NCBI GenBank assembly: GCA_026395795.1
Contig: JAPLYB010000035.1
Coordinates: forward strand, 1 to 34,856
Reading direction: 5' to 3'
Length of the DNA stretch: 34,856 bases
Source: Candidatus Pacearchaeota archaeon
GTDB taxonomy: Archaea; Nanobdellota; Nanobdellia; Pacearchaeales; UBA284
The notes under the pieces are model-generated. The model did no database searches. It was not told the origin of the DNA and saw nothing but the letters and a program-made list of their open reading frames with translations. The translations under genes and the position numbers were made by a program. Below are positions 9,974 to 34,856 of this stretch, piece after piece (the stretch's first letter is position 1; each line of letters begins with the position of its first letter).

Positions 9974-9997
9974 GTTCGTGTTAATTGTTAATGTTTA

Positions 9998-10052
9998 TGC
10001 TAGAAAAAGTCTTGCTTTTTCTGCATGTCGAAAATCCCCTGATTTTCGTCAT
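9998..10052. repeat. Multi-hairpin palindromic element A
   Basis: It starts TGCTAG. Hairpin 1 is AGAAAAAG…CTTTTTCT, the linker is GCATGT, hairpin 2 is CGAAAATC-CCCT-GATTTTCG, and it ends CGTCAT. Read on the minus strand it is the leader of eS31, and the loop shows AGGGG, a possible weak Shine-Dalgarno-like run. It belongs to the same family as elements B-F. Confidence 0.65.
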
Positions 10053-11462: not shown

Positions 11463-11846
11463 CTATCTTTCTTCAAGATATTTCTTCTGTCTTATCATAA
11501 GCACATTAAGTCCTTCTTTCTTAAGTCTTTTTATAAGTTCTTTGTCCATTGTCCCGACAATTGCGGTTTTCTTTTCTTTCATCCCTAACTCAAGAACAGC
11601 GTCATCTGCCTTGCTGTCAATATCATTAACAAACTTCACTTTCTCTCCAATCTTTTCTAAGAATTGTAATGCAATACCGGCCCTTTCTCTATCAACAACT
11701 TTTTCACCTTTACTTTTGCTTAAAACAACAAGTTCAGCAAGAACTTGTTTAAGCAATAATATTTCTTTATAGTTCTCAATCTTGTCAAGTAATTTGAACC
11801 TAACAAGATAAATCAGAAAATTCGTATCTGGGATGATTCTGTTCAT
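11463..11846 (-). CDS. PIN-domain nuclease, Fcf1/Utp24-like
   Basis: PIN RNase fold: RIIPDTNFLIYLVRFKLLD with the first catalytic Asp, QVLAELVVLSKS with the second acidic residue, then DSKADDAVLELG and AIVGTMDKELIKRLKKEG with the last Asps. Archaeal versions of this protein often sit beside rpo7 and are likened to eukaryotic Fcf1, an rRNA-processing nuclease. The open frame extends upstream to 11894, but a TATA (TTTATATA) 26 nt before 11846 and the family start (MNRIIPDTN) set the start there. It differs from VapC in that the RelE/DUF2683 pair next to it is a separate unit. Confidence 0.85.
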   Translation of the reverse strand: MNRIIPDTNFLIYLVRFKLLDKIENYKEILLLKQVLAELVVLSKSKGEKVVDRERAGIALQFLEKIGEKVKFVNDIDSKADDAVLELGMKEKKTAIVGTMDKELIKRLKKEGLNVLMIRQKKYLEER

Positions 11847-16573: not shown

Positions 16574-16948
16574 TTATTTCAATTCAGAAATTCTTTTACT
16601 AAGTTTTTCTAAAACACCGTGTGTATCCCCATAGACATCTTGACCTGGTCTGCTTGATTTCAAACTGATGAGGTCTGTGTCTAAATCAAATGTATTTGTT
16701 TTAGAACTGCTGATATTCAAAGAAGTTAGTGGATCTACCTGTGGCATGATGCTCACAAGATGAATAAGTTCTTCATGAGCAGAATTAACCAGCGTTCTGG
16801 CTTTGAGGATTAATTCATGTTTCATTTTTATTTCATTTTGCGTCCTAAAAGCAGAATCTCTAAGATTAAGTACAGCATTTTTAGCTAATTTGCCATTCTC
16901 TTGAATGTCTTTCAAATCATTTGTTTCTAATCTTATAAAAACCGACAT
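16574..16948 (-). CDS. Unknown coiled-coil-like small protein behind hairpin leader
   Basis: The start is the ATG at 16948; an in-frame TTG at 16954 is less likely. A strong AGGAGGT Shine-Dalgarno lies 9 nt upstream, inside the last hairpin of element B. The protein (124 aa) is helical and polar (FIRLETNDLKDIQENGKLAK, FRTQNEIKMKHELILKA), with a Ser/Thr/Asp-rich middle and a final helix. It has no known motif. The gene at 17113-17679 is upstream on the same strand and also coiled-coil, so the two may act together. Confidence 0.65.
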   Translation of the reverse strand: MSVFIRLETNDLKDIQENGKLAKNAVLNLRDSAFRTQNEIKMKHELILKARTLVNSAHEELIHLVSIMPQVDPLTSLNISSSKTNTFDLDTDLISLKSSRPGQDVYGDTHGVLEKLSKRISELK

Positions 16949-17052
16949 GCTCAAAAACCTCCTGTTTTTGGCACACTTGAAAATCTTCTGATTTTCTGTG
17001 TGCAGGAAATGTAATTTCCTAGCATACCAAAAATATTCTTATTTTTTAGCAT
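16948..17052. repeat. Multi-hairpin palindromic element B
   Basis: It begins ATGCTC and ends TTTAGCAT. Between lie AAAAACCTCCTGTTTTT, a GCACAC/GTGTGC stem (16971-16976 with 16998-17003) enclosing GAAAATC-TTCT-GATTTTC, GGAAAT…ATTTCC and AAAAATATTCTTATTTTT. On the minus strand it is the 5' leader of the downstream gene. The loop of its last hairpin carries the AGGAGGT that probably serves as ribosome site, so folding could control translation. Confidence 0.65.
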
Positions 17053-18744: not shown

Positions 18745-18858
18745 ACACGCTTGAAAATGCGAGAAAATGAACACATTTTCTGCATGCTCAGAAATGCAAA
18801 GCATTTCTGGACACAGAAAATTCGCAAATTTTCAAGCGTGTCAAAAATTAAAAATTTT
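18745..18858. repeat. Multi-hairpin palindromic element C (cruciform-like)
   Basis: An outer stem of 18 pairs, ACACGCTTGAAAAT-GCGA (18745-18762) with 18822-18841 and a 2-base bulge, encloses GAAAATG-AACA-CATTTTC (18763-18780) and AGAAATGC-AAA-GCATTTCT (18790-18808). The linkers are TGCATGCTC and GGACAC. It predicts a multi-way junction in DNA or RNA. It ends just before the rhomboid ATG (18864), so it is also the leader of that gene. Confidence 0.75.
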
Positions 18859-18863
18859 TAAAC

Positions 18864-19628
18864 ATGGCAGAAGGATTTTCCTACAAATTTTCTTATGATT
18901 CTAGCCCTTATATTAGACATGAGAAGAAGCCAAAACTTGGAATATCCATAACTCTTCTTCTAGTCATTATTACTGTTGCAATTTTTCTTGTCCAGAATAT
19001 TGTTGATTACACAACATTAGACAAACAAACAGGAGTTGGATGGTTTACTAGAACTTTTGGATTGATTCCAAACGACGTTCTTCATGGAGAACATGTTTGG
19101 AGTATTTTTACAAACATTTTCTTGCACGCCCCTCTTTGGGACGGAGGCCTGTTTCATATTGCAGCAAACATGCTTTCCCTAGTATTTCTAGGATCTTTTT
19201 TAGAAAGATTGATAAGCAAGAAAAAACTTTTTTGGATTTACATTATATCGGGGATTGTAGCTTCGCTCTTTTTCATCATTCTCGCATCTTTATTCGGATC
19301 AACAGCACTAGGAGCAAGATTATTCGGAAGCCCCAATGTTCTAGCTGTTGGTGCTTCTGGTGCGATTTTTGGTTTAGCAGCAGTTCTCATGATTTTAACA
19401 CCAAAAGTTCCAGTTTATATCTTTTTTATTCCAATTGCTATGCCTCTTTGGGTTGGAATGTTAATTATGCTGATTGGTTTATGGGCTGTATCAGCAGTTG
19501 CAGGACTGCCGATAGGAAACTCAGCTCATTTAGGGGGTTTCATTGCAGGCCTCTTTTATGGGATCTATCTAAGAACAAAATATCCTAAGAAAGTTGCTTT
19601 AATAAGGCAGGCATTTCATAAGAATTAA
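18864..19628 (+). CDS. Rhomboid intramembrane serine protease
   Basis: Six-helix membrane protease that cuts transmembrane segments. The catalytic Ser165 lies in VGASGAIFG and the His222 in NSAHLGGF. A HIAANMLSLVFLG motif (His98, Asn102) precedes them, as in active rhomboids. The 254 aa have an N-terminal cytosolic part (1-27) and helices from about residue 28 to 235. A hairpin element (C) forms the leader, and its last hairpin ends a few bases before the ATG. The HIT-like gene follows 31 bp later. Confidence 0.92.
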   Translation: MAEGFSYKFSYDSSPYIRHEKKPKLGISITLLLVIITVAIFLVQNIVDYTTLDKQTGVGWFTRTFGLIPNDVLHGEHVWSIFTNIFLHAPLWDGGLFHIAANMLSLVFLGSFLERLISKKKLFWIYIISGIVASLFFIILASLFGSTALGARLFGSPNVLAVGASGAIFGLAAVLMILTPKVPVYIFFIPIAMPLWVGMLIMLIGLWAVSAVAGLPIGNSAHLGGFIAGLFYGIYLRTKYPKKVALIRQAFHKN

Positions 19629-25399: not shown

Positions 25400-25840
25400 T
25401 TACTGCTTCTTATCCTTTACTAGATTTTTTAGTTCACTTAACTCTATTGGTGCGTAATCAGTTTTTTCAACACTTACATTTATTCCATTAAAACTTTCTT
25501 TATCATGAATATGCCCGTGAATATTAATAAATCCAACTGAAATTTCTTCTTTTGATAGTGGGCGATGGCTAAATATGAATTTATCAATTCTTAAGCTACC
25601 ATTCATGATTAGAAAGTCTGCTCTTCTGGTTGTTTTACGCTAGAAAAACGGGAATTCGCTCGGAAATCAAGGAAGATTTCCGGCGTGCAGAAAATTTTTT
25701 GAATTTTCTAGCATTTCTGCGTACCAAAAATCTTCTGATTTCCTAGAAAATTATAAATTTTCTGGACACTAAAAATTCTCTTAATTTTTAAGTGTTTTAG
25801 CATGATTAAAATGATTGTCTGAAGTTATAAAAATTTTCAT
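25400..25840 (-). pseudogene. Calcineurin-like phosphoesterase, split by palindromic element D
   Basis: The gene begins at 25840 with MKIFITSDNHFNHAKTLK, the SDxHFxH start of YfcE-like metallophosphoesterases, then stops at 25781. After 25639 a second piece reads …ADFLIMNGSLRIDKFIFSHRPL, then INIHGHIHD and SVEKTDY, the C-terminal metal-binding part. The middle third (GD and GNHD motifs, about 75 residues) is absent. In its place lies element D (25639-25803), full of stops. Both halves are in the same frame relative to each other. The product would be inactive. The longest open remnant is the 68-aa frame at 25400-25606. Confidence 0.8.
25639..25803. repeat. Multi-hairpin palindromic element D (inside phosphoesterase gene)
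   Basis: It begins GCTAGAAAA (25639-25647), paired exactly with TTTTCTAGC (25704-25712), enclosing GGAAATC-AAGGAA-GATTTCC (25662-25681). Then come AAATC-TTCT-GATTT, AAAATTATAAATTTT and ACACTAAAAATT…AATTTTTAAGTGT, ending TTTTAGCATG. The GCTA/TAGC ends match other members. Its position between two coding halves of one gene suggests it arrived by insertion. Confidence 0.75.
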
Positions 25841-25861: not shown

Positions 25862-27127
25862 TTATTTTTCTAAAATCCATTTCCAAACAGGTTTAACTTT
25901 GATTATTTTGTCTTTTATTTTAATTTCATCTTCTTGATCATCTGTTAAAATTAATCCCTCTTTTAGTTTAAATTTTTCTAAAGCTTTAACTAAGCCATTT
26001 ATCTCTCTGTCTCTATTCTCCTTATTTAAATCATAACAAACTTGAATTGCTTCTGAAATTTTGGTCTTTTCTTTTACTAAAAAATCACATTCTTTTTTTT
26101 CACAGAAATAATAGATATCATTATTTCTTCTTTTTAGTTCAATAGCAACTAAATTCTCTAAAAGTTTTCCCCTATCTTCTGAAAACTTGAAGCCAATTGT
26201 GGTAATAAACCCGTTGTCTATACAATAAACTTTTCGAGGGTTTTGTATTTGTTTCTTGACAGCGTAATCAAATTTATTCAAGAAAAAAACTAAAAAAGAA
26301 TTTTCAAATGAATTTAAAATATTCTTAATTGTTGATAGATTTTTTATTCCTGTAAGTTCTGAGATATTCCTGCTACTCGTTAAACTAGCTGGATTAGAAA
26401 GCAGAAATAATCCAAGTTCTTTTATTTCTCTTTCTTGTTTGCTGAATTTTTTAATTATATCTCTATACAAAATCTGGTTATAAAGCTCAGAGATAATGAG
26501 TTTATTTCCTGTAACAACTCTTTTTGGGAAACCACCAATCTCTAAAAATTCTTTGAATTCTCTCCTTATTATTGATTGCGTTTTTAGGTCTAATTTCCAA
26601 TCTTTAATATTTACTTTTTTGAAACTTAAAAATTCAATGAAACTAAAGGGGGTGAGCCATAAACTTACAGATCTTCCAGTAAGTGTGCTTGAAATCTCTT
26701 TGCTTGACAACTTAGAATTTGAACCAGTTATGAAGAGAGGATATATATTTTTTATTCTATCTATCCATTTTTCCCATTTGTCAATTTCTTGAATCTCATC
26801 TAAAAACAAGAAGCAACTTTTTTTGTAATTATTTTCTTCAAGAAAATCAATTATCTTCTGAAAATCATCTATTGTAAAATTTGTTAGACTATCGTCATTG
26901 AAATTTATATAAAAAAAGTTTTTTTCATCTAATTTAAGCTCTTCTTTTATTAATCTTAAAAGGATAGATTTCCCACACCTTCTAACACCAGTTATGATTA
27001 TCGGCATTTTTAGGGCAAGTGTTTCAATTGCTTCTTTTGTGAGTGTTCTTTTTACCAATTCTATTTTTTCTTCTTCTAACTGCTTTTGCTGTCTAAAAAA
27101 AATTGTGTAAAGTTCTTCTCTTTTCAT
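25862..27127 (-). CDS. AAA ATPase of the AAA_14/DUF4143 type
   Basis: 421 aa. Walker A IITGVRRCGKSILLRLIK (Gly47-Ser54), Walker B SCFLFLDEIQEIDKW (about 104-118), sensor FITGSNSKLSSKE, and the TGRSVSLWLTPFSFIEFLSF block lead to a C-terminal DUF4143 domain (VYCIDNGFITTIGFKFSEDR, ENLVAIELKRR, CDFLVKEKTKISEAIQVCYD, a nuclease-like fold). Common, often mobile family of unknown role in archaea. A leaderless TATA (TTTAAA, 27151) and two operator-like repeats lie upstream. Element E lies beyond them. Confidence 0.9.
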   Translation of the reverse strand: MKREELYTIFFRQQKQLEEEKIELVKRTLTKEAIETLALKMPIIITGVRRCGKSILLRLIKEELKLDEKNFFYINFNDDSLTNFTIDDFQKIIDFLEENNYKKSCFLFLDEIQEIDKWEKWIDRIKNIYPLFITGSNSKLSSKEISSTLTGRSVSLWLTPFSFIEFLSFKKVNIKDWKLDLKTQSIIRREFKEFLEIGGFPKRVVTGNKLIISELYNQILYRDIIKKFSKQEREIKELGLFLLSNPASLTSSRNISELTGIKNLSTIKNILNSFENSFLVFFLNKFDYAVKKQIQNPRKVYCIDNGFITTIGFKFSEDRGKLLENLVAIELKRRNNDIYYFCEKKECDFLVKEKTKISEAIQVCYDLNKENRDREINGLVKALEKFKLKEGLILTDDQEDEIKIKDKIIKVKPVWKWILEK

Positions 27128-27156: not shown

Positions 27157-27166
27157 TCTTTCTAAA

Positions 27167-27187
27167 GTGATACACTTTTTGTATCAC
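27167..27187. promoter_or_regulatory. Operator-like inverted repeat, copy 1
   Basis: GTGATAC-N7-GTATCAC, a perfect 7-bp inverted repeat with spacer ACTTTTT, next to the BRE/TATA of the ATPase gene. An identical copy lies at 27200-27220, 33 bp further (three helical turns). This is the expected shape of a dimeric repressor or activator site, such as the ATPase system's own regulator (inference). Confidence 0.6.
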
Positions 27188-27199
27188 TTTTTGTATTAA

Positions 27200-27220
27200 G
27201 TGATACACTTTTTGTATCAC
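27200..27220. promoter_or_regulatory. Operator-like inverted repeat, copy 2
   Basis: Identical to the copy at 27167-27187, including the spacer. A half-site-like GTATTAA lies between the two. Confidence 0.6.
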
Positions 27221-27227
27221 TTCTTTC

Positions 27228-27424
27228 TGCTAGAAAAACACAGTTTTTCTGCATGCCGAAAATGCTTTTCATTTTCGAGCATATTGTCAATAGACAATAG
27301 TTTCTATTGTGAATAGAAAGATGCTTTCACCGATGCTTGAAAACGGCGATTTTCGGCACCCCTCGTTCCGCTCAAAAACCTGGTTTTTTGGCGTGCCAAA
27401 AATCTTCTGATTTTTTAGCATGAT
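27228..27424. repeat. Multi-hairpin palindromic element E (largest, seven hairpins)
   Basis: It begins TGCTAG, ends TTTAGCATGA. In order: AGAAAAAC-ACA-GTTTTTCT (27232-27250); linker GCATGC; CGAAAATG-CTTTT-CATTTTCG (27257-27277); ATTGTC-AATA-GACAAT (27283-27298); TTTCTATT-GTG-AATAGAAA (27301-27319); a GAAAAC…GATTTTC pair; AAAAAC-CTG-GTTTTT; linker GGCGTGCC; AAAAATC-TTCT-GATTTTT. It lies between the ATPase operators and the PfpI gene. Several arms differ in sequence but remain complementary. Confidence 0.75.
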
Positions 27425-34715: not shown

Positions 34716-34856
34716 TGTTAAGTAAACCTTAATACTTAACATAAAGATTTGCAGGAAAATCTTTAATTCCGTTGTTAAATCTCTCTTCATTGAACCATTT
34801 CACCCATTTATCAATTTCTTCGTTTTTCAAAAGCTTGTGAAAGATTGTGATTATAT
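34716..34856 (-). mobile_element. IS 3' end, right contig terminus (copy 2 of terminal inverted repeat)
   Basis: Exact reverse complement of bases 1-141. It holds the same transposase tail on the minus strand and the same IS outer end. The repeat faces the left copy, so the chromosome segment lies between two IS copies in opposite orientation, unless the ends are an assembly artefact. Confidence 0.75.
34729..34854 (-). CDS. Probable transposase, C-terminal fragment (5' end outside window)
   Basis: Same 41 codons as at 3-128, ending NLYVKY and stop. It reads from the right edge towards the window. The N-terminal part and the catalytic residues are not in the window. Confidence 0.5.
   Translation of the reverse strand: MITIFHKLLKNEEIDKWVKWFNEERFNNGIKDFPANLYVKY

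Follow-up and report, generated by a model that had tools for sequence, protein, structure and literature searches.

Rickettsia palindromic elements (RPEs) are palindromic repeats that lie in frame within unrelated housekeeping genes, and also between genes (PMC10969869, PMC3733652). They are approximately 150 bp long, and those of R. conorii end in CGTC (PMC3733652). REP units are palindromes of 20–40 nt, which form intragenic in-frame dimers in some bacteria (PMC3733652). The RAYT classes have been reported only from bacteria, and in a 2018 survey the archaeal TnpA-Y1 proteins were exclusively of the IS200 type (subclass 1.1) (PMC6006769). In archaea (Sulfolobus and haloarchaea), MITEs are known as small non-autonomous repeats (PMC10969869). 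No archaeal case of in-frame palindromic insertion was described in the open-access literature searched. Here, a hairpin array that splits a phosphoesterase gene (element D) was analyzed in the genome of a DPANN (nanoarchaeal) archaeon. We consider it likely (probability about 0.8) that element D is a copy of a non-autonomous, REPIN-like family of double-hairpin mobile elements of DPANN archaea that resembles RPEs in behavior.

The window (the whole stretch of DNA analyzed, 34,856 bp) is contig C4 of the host genome (G000; 957 kb in 44 contigs, 87.5% complete). Public records list relatives of the host as Nanoarchaeota, Pacearchaeota or Woesearchaeota, which places it among the DPANN archaea. 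A perfect 141-nt inverted repeat is present at its ends (1–141 and 34716–34856), possibly an assembly artefact. Completeness of the genomes compared was mostly 80–96%, and the absence of an element or an enzyme from any of them is therefore weak evidence. Coordinates of the features are collected in the table.

Table. Features of the window and of genome G011 referred to in the text (R1, covariance model of the hairpin unit)
Feature	Position	Strand	Basis
5' remnant of calcineurin-like phosphoesterase gene, codons 1–13, MKIFITSDNHFNH	25802..25840	-	paralogue alignment
3' remnant of the same gene, 78 codons and stop, KTTRRADFLIMNGSL...SHRPL...NIHGHIH...KDKKQ-stop	25400..25636	-	paralogue alignment
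Element D, 165-nt array of about six hairpins with in-frame stops	25637..25801		absent from paralogue
Hairpin unit in element D	25656..25686	+	R1, E 0.0046
Hairpin unit in element D	25685..25714	-	R1, E 1.3e-5
Hairpin unit in element D	25740..25767	+	R1, E 0.0027
Hairpin unit in element D	25766..25795	-	R1, E 5.7e-4
Intact AAA_14/DUF4143 ATPase gene, neighbor, outside element D	25862..27127	-	Pfam
Two-hairpin element of the family, intergenic	9997..10052		R1 matches
Element of the family with two to three hairpins, immediately upstream of a start codon on the minus strand	16946..17052		R1, 16973–17001 and 17024–17052; sequence
Element of the family, directly upstream of plus-strand gene starting at 18864	18757..18863		R1 matches, ORF
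Multi-hairpin element of the family, intergenic	27227..27421		R1 matches, best E 7.1e-9
G011 gene with AGCATG start overlap, L215	8989..9231		
G011 gene with AGCATG start overlap, L219	3637..4215		
G011 gene with AGCATG start overlap, L210	996..1349		
G011 gene with AGCATG start overlap, L222	12234..13730		

The earlier note, made from the window alone, had read the flanks of element D as two ends of one phosphoesterase, and proposed that they be compared with an intact gene. The comparison was provided by a paralogue in the same genome (contig C38; 160 aa, MKIFITSDSHFNHKNIIQYSNRPF...), which is uninterrupted and carries no element. The alignment bore out the reading: the two ends lie on either side of the element, correctly ordered and oriented and in one frame, and the gene breaks off at the ends of the element. 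The 5' remnant was identical to the paralogue at 42 of 44 nt, up to TTTTAATCAT (codon 13; E 2e-16), and the 3' remnant at 171 of 213 nt (80%; E 7e-54) from AAAACAACC onward, its homology starting at paralogue nt 247 (codon 83) with 79% amino acid identity over 72 aa. The intervening 207 nt of the paralogue (codons 14–82, 69 codons) are absent from the window copy, and 165 nt of element (55 codons' worth) occupy their place; as both numbers are multiples of three, the two gene pieces share one frame.

The loss of the middle metal motifs, also part of the earlier reading, was confirmed. GDF and GNHD are present in the paralogue and deleted in the window copy, which is left without the full set of D-x-H, GDxx, GNHD, and GHxH motifs and thus cannot work as a phosphoesterase. 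Element D has in-frame stops, the first directly after codon 19, and these make the window copy a pseudogene. The N-terminal piece, which had been given as 19 codons, is gene sequence in codons 1–13, while codons 14–19 (AKTLKN) are element DNA. The word TAAAACA near both edges, put forward earlier as a possible target duplication, proved not to be one: the right copy is mostly gene (AAAACAACC matches AAAATAACT in the paralogue), the left copy lies within the element beside the first hairpin, and clean insertions elsewhere have no target duplication.

Whether the element broke the gene cannot be shown at element D, since the gene has lost 207 nt as well, and either the insertion or the loss may have come first. 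The middle of the gene could have been deleted beforehand, giving a pseudogene that the hairpin array entered later or in whose scar it landed, and this order of events is a serious contender that we place only slightly short of an even chance. In the paralogue, the sequence AATCAT is found at each edge of the stretch that the window copy lacks (codons 12–13 and 79–80), a possible microhomology, and so a short-homology deletion could have taken place before or after the insertion; in addition, the family is enriched between genes and the intact paralogue makes the broken copy dispensable. Against a prior deletion stand the coincidence of the break points with the element ends and the entry of the family into working genes elsewhere with no deletion. 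The state of the 3' remnant, with 78 open codons, no frameshift, and a dN/dS of about 0.06 relative to the paralogue, also speaks against it, as it indicates recent decay, the break being recent relative to the divergence from the paralogue. If the deletion did come first, element D says nothing on entry into a working gene. The earlier claim that element D is direct evidence of entry was accordingly not upheld, the cause of the break being inseparable from the 207-nt loss, whereas the general claim that members of the family can invade coding DNA or take its place gained support from clean in-frame 54-nt insertions in other genes. These are the primary evidence for entry into coding DNA, and element D is supporting evidence.

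An assembly chimaera at the split is hardly credible. The inverted repeat at the contig ends would favor it, as the ends may be artefactual; the gene pieces, however, are correctly placed relative to each other and lie 9 kb inside the closer end of the contig, and similar arrays are found throughout G000 and in independent genomes.

Intact homologues of the phosphoesterase were found in many archaea and bacteria, and a contig scan for a closer orthologue of the broken copy yielded many intact phosphoesterases, none of them closer. The homologue in the related genome G011 (L005, contig C70, 1–150) lacks the first codons. Its homology runs from codon 11 and begins just past an inverted repeat of another kind (CCATAACCT...AGGTTATGG) close to the start of the contig, and this gene may be interrupted by another palindrome.

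The family was first recovered by a mechanical scan for hairpins with an asymmetric internal loop. Its unit is a hairpin of about 27–29 nt with the consensus NNNC-TN-RAAAAYN-loop-NRTTTTY-K-GNNN, in which a variable outer stem of 4 bp and an A-rich inner stem are separated by an asymmetric 2x1 internal loop (TN vs G/T). Units are usually arranged as an inverted (+/-) pair, the two-hairpin elements being mostly 54–58 nt long; arrangements of about 100–110 nt also occur in G011, and element D is a larger mosaic than the usual pair. At least five arrays of the family, element D included, are present in the window. The right-hand 98 nt of element D (25634–25731) are 85% identical to an array on contig C39 of G000 (11545–11638), from which it follows that composite arrays are copied too. 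Repeated GTATCACTT / AAGTGATAC palindromes, which are unlike the family, lie at 27160–27230, beside the array at 27227–27421.

Recognisable-type units numbered 51 in 220 kb of G000. In a Markov control, 22 loosely matching hairpins were obtained, compared with 82 in the real sequence; the hairpins are thus enriched in the genome, and the arrangement at element D is more than chance. A calibrated covariance model of the unit (R1) was used for unit counts. Among 147 R1 matches (140 distinct), 95.6% of the stem cells were paired and 261 cells were changed on both sides, whereas slid controls had 36–63% of cells paired and at most 36 two-sided cells, and shuffles had 79% paired. The first alignment had been selected by pairing and its counts were circular; those from the 147 matches are less so, but still lean to the model.

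Covariation of this strength, together with the many copies that stand just upstream of start codons, would fit hairpins that serve as structured RNA or regulatory elements (5'-UTR switches, terminators, or processing sites) and have become numerous through duplication rather than as mobile DNA. This origin is nevertheless very improbable. G-U pairs made up about 1% of stem cells, where selection on RNA would allow many, and their rarity suggests that selection on a DNA fold fits better than on an RNA fold. The copies also occur in both orientations and in mosaic arrays, are cleanly present or absent within coding genes, and gave no match in an Rfam search of the window, in which only a tRNA was matched.

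Occupied and empty sites were compared between genomes, congeneric at the closest. In four such comparisons (one each for a Nudix-like and a ferredoxin gene, two for a diphthamide-synthesis gene), the net gain was exactly 54 nt (18 codons) each time, with neither a target duplication nor a loss of sequence. The strongest case is the diphthamide-synthesis-family gene (PF01866), which has a 54-nt pair at one site in G008 and at another site in G004, each site being empty in the other of these two congeneric genomes. The same stop follows 117 codons in both genomes (L154 9036–9389; L140 2994–3347); at this length, the gene falls far short of the 302 positions in the Pfam model.

In the Nudix-like gene of G000, WK and KPHTG are separated by an insert of 18 residues (CLKIKDFRHPKNAKHFLG) that G005 (68% identical) and four others lack, and the gap in the DNA alignment is exactly 54 nt; a PDB search with the protein gave no match. 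The ferredoxin of G000 likewise carries an 18-residue insert, placed between CCWK and DGKC, that is missing from G031 and G004. Two further cases in G000, neither of them exactly 54 nt, are probably insertions, judging from alignments: an RsmF/NSUN methyltransferase with 17 residues that 11 relatives lack, and a CO dehydrogenase in which about 19 residues or more have no counterpart in solved structures, as read from the alignment by eye. Candidate insertions were also found in tRNA-guanine transglycosylase, CCA-adding enzyme, Dus, a methyltransferase, topoisomerase, an HD protein, and an AAA_14 ATPase.

Units matching R1 were most numerous in G000 (117), G011 (79), G004 (35), and G008 (27), followed by G007 (9) and G047 (7), with 0–5 in the others (55 relatives searched). 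Across the phylum, at least 101 of 371 genomes had one or more matches at E ≤ 1e-3, the best 20 candidates per genome being scored. In samples of three genome sets, 16/86, 13/64, and 5/30 elements lay inside ORFs of at least 100 aa, 17 of them internally, although such ORFs cover 81–84% of the DNA; the family is therefore mostly intergenic. Three or more of the six frames were free of stops in 30 of 50 elements, compared with 43% of random 56-mers from the genome. Stop-free frames are thus only slightly commoner in the elements, and strong adaptation to coding is not supported. The apparent start codons of some G011 genes, among them those for a histone-like and an RNA polymerase B-like protein, overlap with the element end AGCATG or are supplied by it, and the N-terminal 10–20 residues of these proteins may, to go by the predicted starts, be encoded by the element.

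Three copies of an IS200-like Y1 transposase gene are present in G000 (L007, L008, and L009, on C3, C23, and C43). They share end hairpins (GAGCTCTCGCTAAG...), and the C23 copy lies near two palindromic elements. The insertion of IS200/IS605 elements gives no target duplication, and Y1 genes are found in G000, G011, and G008; the hairpin copies could therefore be MITE-like derivatives mobilized by the resident IS200-type transposases. Such a parentage is unlikely, and the resident copies were rejected as parents, as their end hairpins are unrelated to the element and no Y1 gene was matched in the incomplete genome of G004, which carries 35 units. No RAYT-like gene flanked by hairpin units was found in these incomplete genomes, G000 having only the IS200-like Y1. 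The translations of ORFs between neighboring elements were inspected by eye, and no transposase was recognized. A possible autonomous element between paired arrays (G000 C31:60660–62765) was set aside, as it contains two ordinary-looking membrane protein genes and no recognizable transposase.

The likeness to RPEs lies in the palindromic insert that is in frame in unrelated housekeeping genes, adds a short peptide, and is hosted by a reduced genome. Unlike the bacterial RPEs, the family is archaeal, and its hairpins, 27 nt long and bearing a 2x1 internal loop, form 54-nt pairs with no CGTC tag; CGTC or GACG was found near an end in only 3 of 86 G000 elements, and it is on this tag that the family is set apart from RPEs. 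With REP, REPIN, and BIME sequences the family shares inverted pairs, mosaic clusters, a mostly intergenic position, the lack of coding capacity, and a probable movement in trans. RAYT-type REP/REPIN identity was rejected, as the GTAG foot tag is absent from the family (GTAG or CTAC near the end in 6 of 86 G000 elements). The family behaves like RPEs and REPINs, and membership in either fails on the tags. Like archaeal MITEs, the elements are small and non-autonomous, but no target duplication was found and no parent transposon was recognized among the ORFs inspected; in classical MITEs, the terminal inverted repeats are longer and target duplications are the rule. The ends of IS200/IS605 elements are similar in having a hairpin with a small unpaired feature and in giving no target duplication, but their sequences are unrelated. 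Integron attC sites were also considered, but their core-site motif was not visible in the family.

If element D is a copy of a mobile double-hairpin family, the basic mobile unit would be two hairpins of approximately 27 nt each, oppositely oriented and together 54 nt long. An enzyme acting in trans would move the pair in the form of folded DNA and join ends without staggered cuts; most likely it would be a single-strand transposase of the Y1/HUH type, as for REPINs. Larger arrays, such as element D, may have arisen by repeated or nested insertion and been copied whole afterwards. Most surviving copies in genes would be those that keep the frame, as a 54-nt unit does, and element D would be a survivor that broke its gene and was tolerated because an intact paralogue exists. 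A broader proposition, that this is a new archaeal family of protein-coding double-hairpin elements, moved without RAYT, whose 54-nt size makes entry into genes survivable and which spreads 18-residue inserts through nanoarchaeal housekeeping proteins, is evenly poised between right and wrong.

Sites that are reciprocally empty in congeneric genomes, and a gain of exactly 54 nt that leaves no target duplication, make the transposition chemistry testable. In-frame palindromic insertion has hitherto been known mainly from Rickettsia and some REP-bearing bacteria, and here it involves an unrelated hairpin in DPANN archaea. The same behavior in the reduced genomes of these archaea suggests a recurrent route by which selfish DNA persists where intergenic space is short.
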